From assembly GCA_024635485.1 (NCBI GenBank), contig JAGXIV010000021.1:1-40565 (forward strand): a DNA stretch of 40,565 nucleotides, in the 5' to 3' direction. The position numbers and the translations under genes were made by a program. The notes below the pieces were generated by a model. It was given only the letters and a program-made list of their open reading frames with translations, did no database searches and was not told the origin of the DNA. Origin of the DNA: a bacterium. Its GTDB lineage: Bacteria; Patescibacteriota; Gracilibacteria; BD1-5; UBA6164. Below, piece by piece: positions 1-37,430 of this stretch (position 1 is its first letter; each line of letters opens with the position of its first letter).

Positions 1-3000
1 AAGTCAACGTACATAATCACTCTGTTTTAGAACTCACGGAGCAAAATTTGCATTAAGTCTATCAAGATTTCTATTAATTCTATCAATCAGAATAATAGCA
101 TCATTCACAACAACTCAGGTCAATGCAATAAATCAAATACCAAACGTTAAACTGTATGGATTTCATGTCGCAAACAATCATATATTCACTCAGAGAAGAG
201 CGAGAACTACAGAATACAATATAATAGCGGGTTGCGTATAAGAGTTAAATTGGAATACAAGTATTGAAAAAATAAGAAAGAGAGAGATAAAAAATGAAAA
301 TACCGTTGCTTGAATAAGTTCAGCATTATCTGAATTCTCCCCTCAAGCAGAATAACTGACTCCAGCAGGATAATTATAATTTTCTGCAAAAGTTTCTAGT
401 AAAGGCTGTACCTCAGTAGGAAGTACTCAGTTTTCAAGCTCAGATTCAACTGAAATATTTATTTTGCCATCAAGTCTACTGATACTTGAAAGAGAGGGTT
501 CAAAAGTGTAGCTTAAATAATCTCAAACTCTGATAGGTCATTTTTGCGTAGTGAGAATAATATTTTCGATATCCTTTGGAGAAATCCCATCTCGATATTC
601 TGCAATCTCGATTTTAATTTCGTTATCCTCATATTTAGAAGCGATACTTCCAGCACTAATACCTGATAATTGAGAACGAAGAAGTCCTGTTACATCATCT
701 GGAGTAAGTCATGAAAAAGAAAGTTTTTGTTCATCAAAAGTGTATACAAATTGACCAGGATTATCTTTTGAAGAAACAGAAACATTTTTAGTTCCTTGAA
801 TCGTTAAGAGATACTCTTTGAAATCATTTGCTACTGTTTTTAAAATTCAAATATCATCACTGTTGCTCACGTTTAACTTAATTCAAACTGGAGCTCACGT
901 TGGTGGACCATTGGCTTGAGTCGCAATTTCGACAGTCAAACCTGAAGAGACAAGAGGATCAAGTCACTTCAGTATTGCTTCCTCAACAGTAAATACATCT
1001 CTCATTCACTCTGAGTCTCTAATTTTAGAGTCAATAAGCTCTACATATACACTCATAGCATTTCCTTTGAGCTGAATATAGTAAACCTTAAGTTCTGGAA
1101 AAGTAGAAATAACAGACTCAATTTGTGGAATATACTTATTTAATGCCCGCTCATCGGTTCAGGTTTGAGCTTCGATGTTGATATTAATAATTCCTTCATC
1201 AGATGCTGGAAAAAGAGTAAAACCTATATTTGGAGAAAGAAAAAGAAAACTCAGTATAAGGAGTACAAAAGGAACTCAGATGGACATCAGTCGAGAAAAT
1301 TTATTATCTATAAATCTTGCGAGAGTTCTAGAGTAGCTGTTTGATATCTGCTCAAGTATTTTTTCTCTTGTGTTTTTTGTATCATCTTTCTTTACAGTTT
1401 TTCATACTCTTTCTTCTCGTAAAAATTCAATTTCCTCTTCTGAAAGTGTTTCTTCTAATTCTTTATCATAATGATATACCTTTTTCTTTGCTGCGAGTTT
1501 ATAAAACAATGCTGAAGCGAGAGTGAGAGAAAGAATAAGAGCTGCAACAAGGGTCGCAAATACGGTGATTGGAATAAATGATAAAAATTTTCAAACAATA
1601 CCTGGGAGAAAAATAAGTGGAAGAAATGCTACTAATGTTGTTGCAGTTCAACTTATGAGAGGAGATTTAAGATCTTGAACAGCAAGAATAACTGCAGTCT
1701 TTCGGCTATATCAGAGACTTTGACGTTCTGATGCTCCCTCAATAATGACAATAATCGTATCAATTGCAATTCACAGTGTGAGTACGAGTGAAAAATTTGT
1801 TAAAAAATTTAGTGAAATACCAATAGTATTAAGAACTGCAAAGGTAATAAAAAATGAAAGTGGTAGCAAAATACTTGCAATAAGTGATTCTCTAAAACCA
1901 ACAAACAAGTATATTACAACAAATACAAGTATCAGTGTTTGAACGGCAGTATTTGCAAGATTTTTATAATCTTCAATAATGGTTTCAGCCAAATCTTGTG
2001 AATATTTTACCTCTAAATCTTTAAATTCTGGCTTTGTAGTGATATAATTTTCTAAAGCTTGCTTTGCAGAAGCTGAAACACTAAAGACATTATCTCAAGC
2101 ATTTTTGTTAAATGATAGAGCCACATAATTTTCTCACGTTGTTTCATAAAATCAAAGACTCTTGATTGCTTGATCTGGATATTCTTTTTGAAAGCTTGCA
2201 ATGTCTCCAAGTCTTACTCGAGATATTCAATCTCAAGAAATGATAATATTTTCAAGTTCTCATATACTCCCCAGCTCTCCATCTATTCTAAAATCATACT
2301 CCAAATCACCTATCGTATAATTTCAAAGTGGAGTATTTTTATTAAAGCTTCGTACTGAATTAGCAATAGAACTAACATTGATTCAAAGATTTTCTAGTTT
2401 TGCCTTTGAAACAAGAACCTTAATTTCATATTCAATACTTCCATTTCATCCTGCAGAAAGTGGGTTTGAATTTGTTCCACCAATATCTATAGAAGCAATA
2501 CCAGATTTTCATTCAAGCTCATTTTTCATTTCCTGAGCAAGTGAAGTAAGTGTAAAGGTATCATACTTAGTACTTGGACCATACAATAAAGCATCAAAAA
2601 GGAGTTCATTACTCGTTGAAATTTCTTGGATTCTTGGATCATCCGCTTCAGCAGGAAGACTGAGAGCATCTACTTTATCTTTTATATCAGTAAGAGTATC
2701 TCGTGTACTAATACCATTTTCAAGTTCAACTGTTATACTACTAAATCAAACCGAGGAAGTAGAAGTTATTTTAGAAATTCATTCTATATCATTAATTTCA
2801 TTTTCAATTTTTTCAGTAATCAGACTATCTATATCTTGAGGATTAACTCCAGTATAACTCGTAGCAATTGAAATAATTCCGAATTTTATATCAGGACTAG
2901 ATTCTTTAGGAATTGCAATAACAGAGGCAATTCAAATAAGTACAATGAGAAAAAGGAGTAAGAAAGACGTTTTATAATTTTCAACCCAAAAGGTAAAAAA

Positions 3001-3021: not shown

Positions 3022-4988
3022 TCGTTATTTTGTTCTACAAGATTAAATTTTTCATTTTCATAGTTCGATACATCTGAAACAATTATTTTTTGATTCGAAC
3101 AAGCTTCGTTTTTATATGTACAAGAAATTATTTCGGCATAATCACCATATATTTCTCAAAGCTCTAATTCAGCCTCATCTAATCATTGTGGAGTAAAAAT
3201 ATTTACGCTTCCAACATTATTTCATCAAACAGTAATAATATTAAGTGGATACAAAGTTTTTTCTGTTTTTATTGGTATGAGAACTTGCACTATATCACCA
3301 ATAATATTTACACCACTCTCAAATACTATAGTTGAAACATAATTAAGATTTTTATCAGCAACGTCAGAAAGTGAATATATAGTTCCAACTATAGATTGTG
3401 TTCCTATAACGACTTTAACTTCTTGTCAGACTTCTATAAATCATACTTCAGTGCTTGAAAATGCGACTTGAACTTCTGGAGTATTATCGCTGAGAAGATT
3501 TGCTATTGGAGTTCACGTATTTACTTCTTGACCTAAATCTACAAAGACTTCTCCAACAGTACCATTAATAGGAGAACTTATTGTGAGTTTCGCGTAGTCT
3601 TTTTGAGCAGAGCTAAGTCAAATTTTAGCCTCAGTAATGGCATTTTGTAAACTACGTTTTGTAACATCATAATTTTTATCTAAATTACTCATTGTATTTT
3701 TTGCAGAACTAATCTGGCTTCTGATATTGGCAATACTATCAGTAGTGTTTATTTGTGTTTGTTCCAATCAAATAGTAGCATTGAGTTCAGAACTTTGTAA
3801 ATTATTAAGCTGAATTTGCTGATTTTTTATTTGGATATCTTTGTCTCTTTTTTGCAGTTCTATATTTTTAAGAATTGATTCTTGATTATTTTCATACGTT
3901 CTAAGAAAGCTTTTTATTGAATTAGAAAGAGAAATAAATCAGGTATAGCTCCCCTGAAGTGCAGATTGATATGCATTTATTTGAGCTAAAAAACCATCTA
4001 TCTTTGATTGATCTAAGAGTCCAACACTTGGAGTAGAATTATTGAGTGTTGTTTCAAGATTATTTAATAGGTTTTTTGTAGAATTATATCAAGTATTGAG
4101 ATAATCAATAATTTCTGAAATCTGAGCTTCAGATATATTTCCTGTGTTGAGTTGTTCTTGATACTTGTCATAGGTACCACTATTTCTATATCTTATGAGT
4201 TCTAATAACAAAGCCTCACTTTGTTTTCTTTGATCTGTATCTTTGACTCATAAAAATTGGTCAAAATTATCATTTGAATTGAAGTTTTTTTGTGTTACAG
4301 AAAGAATATTATCAGAAAATTCTATAATATCATCCAGTGTAAATGTAAGAGATATAATCTCTTTTTTAAGATTTGATTTAAATCACTCTACAGTTTCTTG
4401 ATCAGAAATAAGTTTTGTTTGGTACTCTAATTCAAGCCGAGAGATAGTATTATCAAGTTGATCAATTTGTAATTGTGAAGGTGTATTTTGTGAAGTAAAT
4501 GAACTGGTTTGTACTGAGTTTTGAGCTTGTAATATATTTTGTTCTGCACTTTTTAAGGCAACTTCAAGATTTCTGTTTAGATTTGAAAGAGTTACTTCTG
4601 CATCAAAAATTTGCTTATCAAGTCCTAAAACTTGAGAATCATAATTAATTTGAGCTCTTTCAACTGAATTTTGAGCTCTTTGTATTGCTATACCATAGTT
4701 TCAGAGAGTATCTTCTAATCGTACGAGTGTTTGCCCAGCACTAACACTATCACCTACCTTTACTTGTAGTCATCTAATTCTTCCATTTGCATTTGAAGTA
4801 AGTTGAATATCTTGACTCGAAGAAACTCTTCCCGTCTTTTCTAGAATGGATTCATTTTGAAAACTACTTCATAATTTTGTTTCGACAAAAAAATCTTGTT
4901 TTTCTGTACTTACGCCTGAATCTTCTCCTCAAAAACTACATGAAGAAATGAGAAGAACAATAAGTGAAGTACTTATAATTTTCTTCAT
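3009..4988 (-). CDS. RND/ABC-type periplasmic adaptor (membrane fusion protein), lipoprotein with very long coiled coil
   Basis: HlyD/AcrA-type adaptor that would couple the pump to the envelope. 659 residues. The N-terminus is a lipoprotein signal (LIVLLISSCSF, Cys about residue 17). A biotinyl-lipoyl half-motif follows (GRIRGLQVKVGDSVSAGQTL), then several hundred Gln/Asn/Leu-rich residues predicted as a helical hairpin, then the second lipoyl half (LTISSPINGTVGEVFVDLGQ) and a beta-barrel / membrane-proximal part (VGFIEVGQEVKVVIG). Usual family length is about 350-450 residues, so the hairpin is greatly extended. It lies 3 bases downstream of the AbrB-like gene and overlaps the pump gene. 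In-frame TGA codons occur at conserved Gly positions. Confidence 0.88.
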
Positions 4989-31712: not shown

Positions 31713-32270
31713 CTATTTTTGATGAGGTATAGCAGCATTATCAGATGCAGAGTCATCAACTTCACCATCATCTAATCCATCTTCTATTCCTGTGTCTTTT
31801 CAAGCATTATCAGATGCAGAGTCATTAACTTCACCATCGTCTAATCCATCTTCTGTTCCTGTATCTTTTCAAGCATTATCAGACGCAGAGTCATCAACTT
31901 CACCATCGTTTAATCCATCTTCTATTCCTCCATCATATCACTCTTGCTTCTCATTATCCTGTTCTTCTTGAAGAAATACTCCATTAGAATCAAATTCTAG
32001 TTCTATTCATGTTGAAAGTTCTACTCATATTGTATTATCTTCACTTTCAGCTTTTGTTATGCTCGCTCCAGAATAATGAGTTGTGACATAGTCTGTAAGA
32101 TTTACTGGGAGACTTCATACATCTAAAACAACGTCTTTTTCTCACTTCATACTTTTTACATTCTCTAAAACTCAAGTATTTGTAGCCGCAAATGCACCCA
32201 CAGCAGTTGCAAGAATAATTCAAGCTGCTACTCAAGCAGATGTATAAAGTGTCTTTTTTTTATTTTCCAT
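31713..32270 (-). CDS. Exported PepSY-like protein with C-terminal acidic tandem repeats
   Basis: 185 residues. Signal peptide (LYTSAGVAAGIILATAVGAFA), then a PepSY-like (BLIP-fold) domain: LPVNLTDYVTTHYSGASITK, IGVELSTGIELEFDSNGVFL. The last ~75 residues are three 23-residue repeats of the form GxEDGLDDGEVDDSASDNA, very rich in Asp/Glu, which could bind cations. Neighbours are the two-component pair and a COG4705-type membrane protein. PepSY proteins often act as secreted sensors or inhibitors. A terminator follows, so it is not read into the regulator gene. Confidence 0.78.
31735..31930 (-). repeat. Three tandem 69-bp coding repeats
   Basis: Units begin at 31735, 31804 and 31873 (spacing 69 bases each; the third is slightly truncated at its end). 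They differ by a few substitutions and keep the reading frame, encoding the 23-residue acidic repeat of the PepSY-like protein. Confidence 0.9.
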
Positions 32271-33727: not shown

Positions 33728-35158
33728 TTAAATTCCTCGACCTCTTGGCATATCTCCATCATGTAGAACAGCCTCCGAATGAAGTAATGCTGCTTGTTTT
33801 GCTGAATCCAAAACTTTGAGAGCGCTTCGCTGTAACATTCTTTTTTCAAAATCTTCCAGGAGAGTTTTTCTCAGTCATATTTCTCTCCACTGTGAATCTA
33901 GACCACATTTTTTCGTGATAGCTCGAGCGAGTTCTAGAGCATCTAAAATGGCCTGATTTGCTCCTTGTCATTTAAAGGGACTCATGGGATGCATAGCGTC
34001 TCATATCAGTGTACTATTTCAGAAATTCTTTAAAAATTCTGGATCAAGTACTTCTCTATCATACACTGGATATCCAGTAATTTGAGAAATATCTGTTTCG
34101 CTCAGTATTTCAGGAATAGGACTATGCCATTTTCAAAGTCTTTTCAATCATTCTTGCTTCAGTGCTTGGGCTCATTTTTTACTGAGTTCCTTCGCATCTT
34201 TTTCAGACATCGGAAAACTCAGCTGCCACATAATACTCTTTGTGTCATAGGGCATCATATATATTCGCTCGTGACCATTCACCGTCTGAATAACAGTTGC
34301 TGAGTCTAGAAGTATATTCTCTTCATCACTCAATACAGTCAATGGACAAATACCGAGTATCACAATACAACCCAAATACCTCAATGGTACATCATCATCT
34401 CGCATAAGATGAGCTCTAACACTACTTCGTATTCCATCTGCTCCAACTACTATATCTGCTTGAGTTATTTGTTTGGTAGCATCTACTTGAAATTCTAATT
34501 CAATCTGAGATGAAGCATTATGAGAAATTTTTTTCAGACAATGCCCCCACTTAATACCTGTATCATCAGGTAATTGCGCTAACAATTCTGCACGGAGAGC
34601 TTGTCTTGAGATATGTACATTTCTTCGCTTTGTTGGTTTTTCTATTTCAACCACTCCTAATCTTCTTCTTCCCCATTCTCCAATGATTTTACCTTCTATA
34701 TCATGGACTACATGCCTCGTAGAAGTCAGACCATTTTCAAGATGAGAAATACCGAGTCATTCAATCGCTTTACTTGCTTGTTGAAGCGTGAGTCCATATC
34801 ATTGAGAGCGTGCATCAAAACTTGTATCACGCTCATAGAGTGTATACGGAATTCATCGATGAAGACAGGCAACCGCAAGAGCGACTCAAGCTATTCCCCC
34901 ACCGATAATTGCAACAGTTGGATAGTCCTTTAAATTTACTTCAGGAAATGTATCTGATTTTTCTAAACCAGTTCCAGCACAGAATGAACAGTTATCAATA
35001 TGAGATACGAGTTGTTTTGGTTTATCAACTCCATCAATTCCATCCCCAAATTGTTGTAACAATTTTGCGTGACGACGACGGGCTCGTTTTCAAATTGAGA
35101 GTGCTACTTTTCATTGTCATTGGCACTGCGTACAGGCTTGAAATTTCGTTTTATTCAT
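33728..35158 (-). CDS. FAD-dependent monooxygenase with N-terminal Cys-rich (zinc-finger-like) extension
   Basis: 476 residues. Group A flavin monooxygenase: dinucleotide-binding TVAIIGGGIAGVALAVACLH (~82), DG motif VVGADGIRSSVRA, and FAD motif LIGDAMHPMSPFKGQGANQA. Relatives hydroxylate aromatic or polyketide substrates or inactivate tetracyclines; substrate not inferable. Residues 1-70 are unusual: two Cys pairs at 9/12 and 57/60 in DnaJ-like contexts (CTQCQGQG, CSFCAGTG) separated by a basic stretch (GKRARRRHAKLL), suggesting zinc binding. In-frame TGA codons show it is adapted to code 25. Stands alone on the minus strand. Confidence 0.87.
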
Positions 35159-35394: not shown

Positions 35395-35469
35395 ATGAAA
35401 AATAGTATAAATTACATCACTTGGTGGACAGCAGAAATTCTCAAAGAAAGTTCTGTTTTTATGGTATAG
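35395..35469 (+). CDS. Trp-rich leader peptide 1 (attenuator)
   Basis: 24-residue ORF MKNSINYITWWTAEILKESS plus a 4-residue end, stop TAG. Tandem UGG codons at 35422-35427 sit ahead of a terminator hairpin 17 bases after the stop, the arrangement of ribosome-mediated trp attenuation. AAAGAAAG at 35443-35450, inside the ORF, is complementary to CTTTCTTT (35491-35498) of the terminator's left arm and loop. A ribosome stalled at the Trp codons would therefore leave an antiterminator free to form. Confidence 0.75.
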   Translation: MKNSINYITWWTAEILKESSVFMV

Positions 35470-35486
35470 TTTTTACCACAACTCTT

Positions 35487-35518
35487 AGGTCTTTCTTTTA
35501 ATAGAAAGACCTTTTTTT
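35487..35518 (+). terminator. Attenuator terminator 1
   Basis: Perfect stem AGGTCTTTCT / AGAAAGACCT (35487-35496, 35503-35512), 6-base loop, then TTTTTTT. Located between leader 1 and leader 2 with no gene in between, so it can only act as a regulated (attenuating) stop. Confidence 0.85.
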
Positions 35519-35535
35519 ATTCTAAAATTAACTCT

Positions 35536-35604
35536 ATGCAAACATTAATATTAATACTTAAAACTTGGTGGAATGGACCTCCGTGGTGTAATTATCTCGA
35601 ATAA
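35536..35604 (+). CDS. Trp-rich leader peptide 2 (second attenuator in series)
   Basis: 22-residue ORF MQTLILILKTWWNGPPWCNY followed by two residues, stop TAA. Contains tandem UGG (35566-35571) and a third UGG (35584-35586). It shares the stretch ACTTGGTGGA with leader 1. TGTAAT (35587-35592) can pair with ATTACA (35636-35641) of the following terminator, giving a possible antiterminator; further small dyads (AATTAT/ATAATT; TGCTG/CAGCA) lie between. Confidence 0.75.
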   Translation: MQTLILILKTWWNGPPWCNYLE

Positions 35605-35630
35605 TTGCTGTTTTTTCAGCATAGATTTTC

Positions 35631-35667
35631 AAGCTATTACACCTGTATGTAATAGCTTTTTATTTTT
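35631..35667 (+). terminator. Attenuator terminator 2
   Basis: Stem AAGCTATTACA / TGTAATAGCTT (35631-35641, 35648-35658), loop CCTGTA, then TTTTTATTTTT. Ends 12 bases before the first structural gene of the operon. Confidence 0.85.
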
Positions 35668-35679
35668 AATACAAAATAT

Positions 35680-36558
35680 ATGAACCAAAATACATTAGAA
35701 AAAACCTTCCGAAATGGAAGTGATGGCAAAAGAAGATTTAGTCCTGTAAATAATACAGGTGAAAGATTTTCTACTCTCTGCAAGAACCTAATACAAGATA
35801 ATGGAGACTTTAGCTCTACTCACCTCCATATATGATTTGGCTTAGCAAAAAACTGAGAAGTACCTGTAAGATTACCTGCTCTACTTATTCCAGCCTTAGA
35901 AATAATGAAGAGGCTTTTAGAACAAGACATAACACCTCCTCATCTTGTAATATACCAAGCTACTTCAATAATTTCGAGAGTAAATATGATACCAAAGCAT
36001 GATGCTTTACGAGTAGCAATTATTATGGAAACGAAGCTATATTGCTTTATAAAAGAAAATTTTCCAGAGCTTCTTCCCTACGTCAATATTTATTTTTGAG
36101 AAAAAGAAAATGATGAAGATTCACTTGAAGCAATTAAAAGTTATAGCTTAAAAGTTTCTGAAACACTATCAAAAAATGGAAACAACTCTCATTTTCAAGA
36201 ATGCGAAAAGAGACATAGTAACTGAAAAGATGAATATGTCCTTTACGTAACTGCAAATACTTTCTATAACTGAGGTTTTAATGAATATCCATTTCAAGAT
36301 ACGGATGACGCACAAAATATTATTCCTATATGAGGACGTAGTGAGACAAAATTCTTTGAAACACTTTTACAAACTCAAACTTCTTTTCGAGATATTTTTC
36401 CTCTTATTACTCAAGTAGGTGCTTTCCCTACCTATTACCATAATCCCAGATGAGATATAGGAACTATTCAAGAGTTATCTCAGTACCATTCCTGAAATAT
36501 ACAACTTCATCCCGATATAAGAAAAGACTTACAAATTTTATCCCCTTACTCTTTATAA
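35680..36558 (+). CDS. Unrecognised protein controlled by tandem Trp attenuators
   Basis: 292 residues, soluble, no signal peptide. Notable stretches: STHLHIGFGLAKNGEVPVRL (a HIGF sequence reminiscent of the HIGH motif of class I nucleotidyl-transferase folds), LLIPALEIMKRLLEQDITPP, VIYQATSIISRVNMIPKHDA, YVLYVTANTFYNGGFNEYPF and IIPIGGRSETKFFETLL. The overall alternation of helices and strands suggests an alpha/beta enzyme, possibly a HUP-type fold; this is inference and no family is claimed. Several TGA codons read as Gly. The stop is 2 bases before the racemase ATG, so the two are co-translated. Trp control implies a role in Trp supply or Trp use. Confidence 0.7.
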
Positions 36559-36560
36559 TT

Positions 36561-37265
36561 ATGAAAAAAATATGAATTTTGTGAGGTATGTGACCTCAAG
36601 CAAGTCTACACTTCTACCAACTACTTATACAAAAAGTAGAGACAAATATACGTAATCCAAGAAACCAAGATTTTCCTAATTTACTCCTTTCAAACATTCC
36701 TGTTCCTGACTTAATAAAAGGAAAAGATGATATAAATACTATTGAAACTACTATTCGTATGGTAAATAAAGAAGCAAAAACTCAAGAAAAAGCTTGAGCG
36801 AGTTTTCTTGTAATGCCTTGTAACACCATGCATTTATTCAAAAAAGATATTATAAAGTGAGTAAATATCCCTTTTATTTCTATGATAGATTGTGTGACTG
36901 AGAAAATACAGAAACTTGGTTTTAAAAAAGTATGATTGTTATGAAGTAGAACTACCATGCAGTCTCAACTATATACTCATCCTTTAAGCTGTATGTGAAT
37001 TGAAACCATCATACCTGAAGAATATAAACACAGCAATATATCTCAAATCATACATAACTATATAGCAGGAACAACTCATAAAAATGATATAAAATTACTT
37101 GAATGATATTGTGATGACTTACTAGAGAGTTGAAGTGAGCTTATTATATTATGATGTACTGAACTTCCTTTAATATTAAAAGCTAGCTTTTGAAAATATA
37201 ACTTTCTAGCCTCAAGTGAAATATTAGCTGATAGTACCTTAAACTACTATTATAATGACTTATAA
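36561..37265 (+). CDS. Aspartate/glutamate racemase family protein (RacX-like)
   Basis: 234 residues, normal for the family. KKIGILGGMGPQASLHFYQL at the N-terminus, first catalytic Cys region FLVMPCNTMHLF, middle KVGLLGSRTTM, second catalytic Cys LIILGCTELPLIL. Both Cys of the two-base PLP-independent mechanism are present. Members racemise Asp, Glu or other amino acids; the specificity is not evident. The pairing with a gene under Trp attenuation raises the possibility of an aromatic or broad substrate. Many Gly, including those in GGMGP, are TGA-encoded. The stop codon is inside an inverted repeat. Confidence 0.9.
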
Positions 37266-37351: not shown

Positions 37352-37430
37352 TGGAGCGGGGGACCAGGTTTGAACTGGCACACCCAAGGGTTGAAGCCTT
37401 AGTACACTCACTCTTTTATGTTACCCCCGC
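37352..37430 (-). tRNA. tRNA-Gly(UCA), decodes UGA as glycine
   Basis: 79 bases including encoded CCA. Acceptor stem GCGGGGG / CCCCCGC, discriminator U. Anticodon stem TAAGG / CCTTG with loop CTTCAAC, anticodon UCA. 5-base variable region, T stem GCCAG / CTGGT with loop TTCAAAC. G1-C72, C2-G71, G3-C70 and U73 are the bacterial glycyl-tRNA-synthetase acceptor identity set, so it should carry Gly, not Trp. The D arm is irregular: ACAT / GTGT with a 10-base A-rich loop that lacks the usual GG, and two bases before the anticodon stem. It has its own strong promoter and terminator. Sole RNA gene in the window, and the direct cause of the code change. Confidence 0.93.

Follow-up and report, generated by a model that had tools for sequence, protein, structure and literature searches.

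In textbook attenuation, an operon carries one leader peptide. Predicted trp attenuators of Actinobacteria include leaders that precede trpS (PMC1262725). Tandem leader-peptide attenuation has been called singular for the mgtCBR operon of Salmonella (PMC3641672), and a double lock of two attenuators has been described for msrD (PMC10314930). Our literature search, which reached few subscription papers, turned up no account of such leader peptides in candidate-phyla bacteria. Here we describe a locus from a member of the Gracilibacteria in which two Trp leaders, each with its own terminator, lie in series ahead of a gene pair. The window, by which we mean the whole 40,565-nt stretch of DNA that was analyzed, carries these elements at 35395-35658, and we consider it highly probable that they form a tandem, same-signal, ribosome-mediated transcription attenuator ahead of gene X and a racemase gene (Table 1).

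Table 1. Coordinates of the tandem leader and of the genes around it in the window
Feature	Position	Strand	Description
FAD monooxygenase gene	33728-35158	-	divergent from leader
Leader ORF 1	35395-35469	+	24 codons, translated as MKNSINYITWWTAEILKESSVFMV, then stop; Trp codons 35422-35427
Region 2 of unit 1	35442-35455	+	CAAAGAAAGTTCTG, antiterminator 5' partner; W+15..28
Intrinsic terminator 1	35487-35519	+	stem 35487-35512, U tract after; -13.4 kcal/mol
Leader ORF 2	35536-35604	+	22 codons, MQTLILILKTWWNGPPWCNYLE, then stop; Trp codons 35566-35571 and 35584-35586
Region 2 of unit 2	35585-35592	+	GGTGTAAT; partner ATTACACC at 35636-35643
Intrinsic terminator 2	35631-35663	+	stem 35631-35658, U tract after
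Gene X	35680-36558	+	encodes 292 aa by code 25, with 8 TGA read as Gly; no sequence family
Asp/Glu-racemase-family gene	36558-37265	+	overlaps end of X; MPCNTMH and LGCTELP motifs

The tandem leader occupies the space between the divergent FAD monooxygenase gene and gene X. Both units have the layout of a trp-type attenuator: a short leader ORF with adjacent Trp codons, a segment past the regulatory codons that is complementary to the 5' arm of the terminator, and an intrinsic terminator between the ORF and the gene. Under a strict definition (ATG...TGGTGG...stop, no more than 40 codons, terminator after), the 40.5-kb window contained exactly two such units, and 60 dinucleotide shuffles yielded none. 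The leader region held 3 terminator-like sites within 541 nt, versus 0.1 in shuffles, and its predicted fold (-67.1 kcal/mol) had a z score of -4.5. No Rfam family, T-box or other riboswitch, matched at gathering score anywhere in the window. Because only about 16 nt separate U tract 1 from the start codon of leader 2, and a scan of the leader's plus strand found no promoter-like site, the two units most likely share one transcript. A consensus sigma-70 promoter was not found just upstream of the leader in G000; TTGACA is present upstream of the tandem leaders of two sister species (G166 and G051).

An initial annotation of this sequence had reported two Trp-Trp leader ORFs of 24 and 22 codons, each followed by a strong hairpin and a U tract. 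Translation reproduced the ORFs exactly, and both hairpins were located. The annotation had also described a leader-terminator complementarity in each unit; both exist, and the second, between GGTGTAAT and ATTACACC, is longer than had been stated. In folding with ribosome masking, which it had proposed as a check, a ribosome placed at the stop codon of leader 2 reduced the 2:3 pairs of unit 2 from 8.2 to 0.0; the stalled and free states of unit 1 did not separate at equilibrium. The unit 1 switch would therefore have to be kinetic. In equilibrium folding, the finished terminator won in every state. A long-range pairing between leaders 1 and 2 in the minimum free energy structure was dropped, as by eye it is absent from G166 and G051.

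The genome uses code 25 (TGA = Gly), as most long genes in the window are open only under that code. Neither leader ORF contains TGA, so both are independent of the recoding, which the initial annotation does not bring up. A tRNA with a UCA anticodon at 37352-37430 (minus strand), called tRNA-SeC by ARAGORN, is under code 25 a candidate tRNA-Gly(UCA) for the recoded TGA. Elsewhere in the window, the FAD monooxygenase has an N-terminal CxxCxGxG-like stretch and is possibly a foreign gene, and the region 31713-32270 (minus strand) encodes an acidic protein that has a hydrophobic stretch at its N terminus and contains three imperfect tandem repeats (GIEDGLDDGEVDDSASDNAGKDT).

From the sequence we infer the following mechanism. 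When Trp-tRNA is plentiful, ribosomes would traverse each leader ORF, the terminator's 5' arm (region 3) would pair with its 3' arm (region 4), and polymerase would halt at about 35519 or 35663. When Trp-tRNA is short, a ribosome would stall on the adjacent Trp codons, leaving region 2 beyond it free to pair with region 3, and polymerase would read through. With both units working, polymerase would have to pass two locks before reaching X and the racemase gene, and the read-through fractions would multiply; two units in series might thereby sharpen the response. On this model, X and the racemase would be switched on by Trp shortage.

The antiterminator was assessed by pairing the sequence downstream of the last Trp codon with the 5' arm of the terminator. 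The unit 1 duplex (region 2 with the terminator 5' arm) reached -8.5 kcal/mol (shuffle P of 0.086, the weakest among the g1/g4 units), and the unit 2 duplex reached -10.3 kcal/mol (P of 0.047). Across 17 units from 12 genomes the duplexes beat their shuffles (Fisher P of 6e-17; single-unit P of 0.003 to 0.086), as they did in 12 further units from the Y family described below (Fisher P of 4e-11; 2 to 3 units weak alone), although both combined values overstate the evidence because the units are related. In the 17-unit set, the G275 ORF was taken in the wrong frame, a few nucleotides off, which hardly altered the segment. Region 2 begins about 6 to 19 nt past the last Trp or His codon in nearly all units, the exceptions being the G275 unit (+27) and unit 2 of G097 (+30). 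In most units, region 2 is thus positioned just outside the edge of a stalled ribosome, as ribosome-mediated attenuation needs.

Region 2 of unit 2 is conserved in five of six aligned units and is re-made as GTGATAG/CTATCAC in the sixth (G230). The count of antiterminator pairs in unit 2 reflects conservation, not covariation. The stem of terminator 2 does covary: in six genomes 98.5% of cells are paired, with two-sided changes at 4 pairs, versus at most 56% paired in slid controls. Comparison of the Peribacter loci L004 and L011 shows 10 of 11 pairs of region 2 with the terminator preserved and a two-sided change, read by eye as GCUGC/GCAGC versus GCUAC/GUAGC. In unit 1 leaders of a second genus, a hairpin (ATAACTAAAAATAACAGTTTTAGTTAT) that holds region 2 directly follows the Trp pair; it is the classical 1:2 element.

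Tandem units recur across genomes: ahead of the X operon in G000 and G166, ahead of trpBA in G051, ahead of trpD and a trpE-trpG fusion in G230, and ahead of a nadB-like gene in G043. G166 and G051 are sister species within the genus of the window's genome, and G230 and G043 belong to the second genus. A covariance model of unit 2 built from three tandem units (R1) found the other tandem units at E values of 7e-14 to 4e-4; weaker matches (G000 C28, G051 C15, G230 C207, and G149) fell within genes or spanned them, and we discarded these. In G166, where X is 55% identical, two leaders (MNTQILNISWSLFSHLGRVSLCV and MLTLSFKIWGQEPPWCNYHE) stand at the same place, with a terminator after each and an extra 153-aa ORF between leader and X. 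Leader 1 there has a single Trp, and in leader 2 the second UGG has become UGA (Gly), giving W-G for W-W. G051 lacks X and encodes trpB and trpA, and its tandem (MTHKNNHISWWIVDISHRKISIFSA and MFQLNYKIWWHTPPWCNSQNYYF) lies directly before trpB. G193, also found with R1, has one unit, with a unit-2-like leader, before an orphan ORF; its locus is syntenic with that of G166 and has no X. Homologous leader 1 sequences, with a Trp pair or a single Trp, were found in G166, G051, G043, G230, G231, and G135. Within the genus, leader 2 keeps W, PPWC (in G166, G051, and G193), and the pairing segments. Units 1 and 2 are unrelated in sequence and share the same layout.

G230, G043, G231, and G135 have a common locus beside a YbaK-like gene and/or proS, where the cargo is a full trpCDFEGBA set, a remnant, or a different gene (trpC/F assigned by eye). 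The leader stays while the cargo varies, which indicates that the leader outlasts the gene behind it. G231 retains a broken second unit without a terminator and G135 a single unit; since single units exist (G135 and G193), two are not required. The proposal in the initial annotation that two Trp attenuators act in series gains support from the tandem leaders before trpBA and trpD-trpEG, and the search it advised, for Trp leaders near X homologues in related genomes, recovered the tandem in G166. Loss of the Trp codons or of the leader in relatives, named there as grounds for rejection, was encountered in part (G166, G248, and G276) and does not go far enough to overturn the reading.

Gene X had no sequence matches in Pfam, NCBIfam, PHROGs, PDB, or viral contigs. 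Structure predictions for two lead sequences (pLDDT of 79 and 84; pTM of 0.82 and 0.87) aligned with class-I Tyr/Trp-tRNA synthetases across some 240 residues (Z of 17.6 and 16.8; rmsd of 3.4 and 3.3), and X is accordingly predicted to have a class-I Tyr/Trp-tRNA-synthetase-like fold. Foldseek also listed cyclodipeptide synthases (6ez3, E of 5e-4), whose class-I synthetase-like fold the predicted models of X share; X had no match to the cyclodipeptide synthase Pfam family. HIGH and KMSKS are absent from all eight members. The IPIGG and YxAAN motifs of X look by eye like VPVG and AADI of TrpRS; a sequence relationship to TrpRS was nevertheless rejected (hhalign probability of 0.2%), and the fold alone was kept. 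Every X genome tested encodes a canonical trpS elsewhere. Mutual exclusion of X and trpB was also considered: none of the four close X genomes in the window's family has trpB, but as just 7 of the 48 genomes in that family carry the gene, this is no evidence for exclusion.

The partner gene scored above the cutoff for TIGR00035 (E of 9e-50), matched PF01177 (E of 3e-31), and has the two catalytic-Cys motifs of Asp/Glu racemases, read in the translation. It is paired with X in most X homologues. For more distant X-like proteins, the gene that follows encodes a DapF-like protein or a racemase, the DapF assignments being by eye (the one tested with Pfam gave no match). Longer X-like proteins (430 to 506 aa) at L006, L016, and L020 each adjoin a DapF-like gene and suggest that the X fold is more widely tied to cofactor-free racemases.

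Among eight close homologues of X, the two in G248 and G276 lack a Trp leader immediately upstream. In Peribacter, X-racemase pairs follow leaders with adjacent Trp codons (QNWWSANN at L004, LNWWSANI at L011, and GWWQPCN at L013), and TrpR is adjacent in two of these loci (L004: PF01371, E of 8e-24). In Candidatus Peribacter (L024 and L025) a single such leader precedes the pair, with trpR directly upstream, and palindromes resembling TrpR operators lie near the leader start. In the Peregrinibacterium locus L023 (G276), the surroundings of X include a second trpS, trpR, tRNA-Trp, a chorismate mutase domain protein, and a PLP decarboxylase; in the entry for positions 3592-4170 of this locus, trpR, tRNA-Trp, and the second trpS cluster with an operator-like palindrome (TGTACT-N6-AGTACT) around the X-racemase operon. 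No TrpR match was found in the window's genome. In a separate Peribacterales locus (L066, G275), trpD-trpCF-trpB-trpA come after a kynU-like gene (all names but trpB assigned by eye), which is possibly a kynurenine-to-tryptophan recycling operon. Such recycling operons occur in some chlamydiae.

The leaders and the trpR, trpS, and tRNA-Trp neighbors tie the X-racemase pair to tryptophan, and we think it somewhat probable that the pair serves Trp supply or handling. The initial annotation had found a Trp switch before non-trp genes unexpected. X and the racemase are indeed not trp genes, but the leader they share with trp genes argues that they belong to the Trp economy.

R1 also gave a weak match in G244 (E of 0.0018), where tandem leaders carrying histidine (FSYHNAKN and NLHHHFLKHC) precede a gene of a second family, Y (256 aa, no known family), with six further homologues in the order. 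A profile comparison gave no match between X and Y, and merging them into one family was rejected. All seven genomes have Y leaders with His and/or Trp codons, in tandem in at least six: LHHT/FHHPLSH in G250, NHHHC/IHHYGH in G131, IWWTS/KIWWLNEYDYFW in G224, SWYH/NIWHHYLAHW in G097, and SWHS/NIWHHFLSHW in G079 (second terminator doubtful), with THHHFALH in G229 (second unit doubtful). An alpha/beta hydrolase gene lies downstream of Y, followed by trpS in two genomes. These loci (L089 and L121 to L127) are outside the window, and most of their leader ORFs have terminators and the same regulatory design. The unit design appears, from these sequences, to have been re-tuned between Trp and His.

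Several alternatives to two working Trp attenuators can be weighed against these data. One unit might do all the work, the other being a duplication relic on its way out, as the broken second unit of G231, the single unit of G135, the lone unit-2-like leader of G193, and the single Trp in leader 1 of G166 would suggest. We regard this as improbable: leader, region 2, and terminator are complete in both units of G000, G051, G043, and G230, the two units are unrelated in sequence while alike in layout, and at least six of seven genomes have their Y leaders in tandem. Still less credible is leader 2 as a nascent-peptide sensor for free Trp or EF-P, through TnaC-like or polyproline arrest at PPW. 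Although four species of the genus share PPWC, the nucleotides conserved there (TGGTGTAAT) coincide with region 2, members of another genus keep the Trp pair without PP (KNIWWTSKGWCN and KNIWWKTSFWG), and similar tandem leaders carry HHH instead. That two ordinary terminators happen to follow two chance ORFs, with no regulation, is least credible of all; terminators are frequent between genes, but no shuffled window yielded a unit and the arrangement is conserved across genera.

A more serious alternative concerns the cargo, namely that X and the racemase consume Trp or make a natural product, with X acting like a cyclodipeptide synthase on aminoacyl-tRNA and the leader responding when Trp-tRNA is lost, as a Trp-tRNA-synthetase inhibitor might cause. 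The Foldseek match to 6ez3 and the second trpS, tRNA-Trp, PLP decarboxylase, and trpR around X in G276 favor this possibility. Attenuation, however, turns genes on at Trp-tRNA shortage, the opposite of what would suit a consumer, and sister leaders govern trpBA and trpD-trpEG. We hold it to be a minority possibility beside a role in Trp supply or handling.

We speculate, as a tentative reading that we place below even odds, that in the Gracilibacteria order of this genome serial double-lock attenuation is a general starvation device, re-tuned between Trp and His, that marks the X and Y families as a route of Trp/His acquisition or handling. If this is true, it marks at least two undescribed families, X with its racemase and Y with its alpha/beta hydrolase and sometimes trpS. 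A same-signal tandem also allows the benefit of a second lock to be asked about, be it lower leak, a steeper response, or insurance, the last for very small cells with few ribosomes. Leader codons tell which amino acid is served by candidate-phyla genes that lack homologues of known function, and the leaders offer a search handle for further such genes.

Compared with known systems, X resembles Tyr/Trp-tRNA synthetases and cyclodipeptide synthases in predicted fold, but differs from the synthetases in lacking HIGH and KMSKS in its eight members and any TrpRS profile match. The leader shares with E. coli trpL and the trp attenuators of Actinobacteria (PMC1262725) an ORF with adjacent Trp codons and mutually exclusive antiterminator and terminator; those systems have one unit per operon, whereas here two stand in series and the cargo includes genes of no known family. 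Tandem riboswitches, such as the B. clausii metE leader (PMC3641672), and tandem T-boxes (PMC12452182) likewise place two sensors in series, but they bind ligand or tRNA directly, while translating ribosomes would do the sensing here. The MefA/MsrD double lock (PMC10314930) also has two attenuators, which sense macrolides rather than amino acid starvation. In Salmonella mgtCBR (PMC3641672), as here, two leader ORFs in one leader each have a regulatory effect; mgtM and mgtP respond to different signals (ATP and Pro-tRNA) through stem-loops unlike intrinsic terminators, whereas here the two units share the same Trp codons and each has an intrinsic terminator. Trp attenuation itself is known; what is new is a conserved same-signal tandem that appears to be re-tuned to His.
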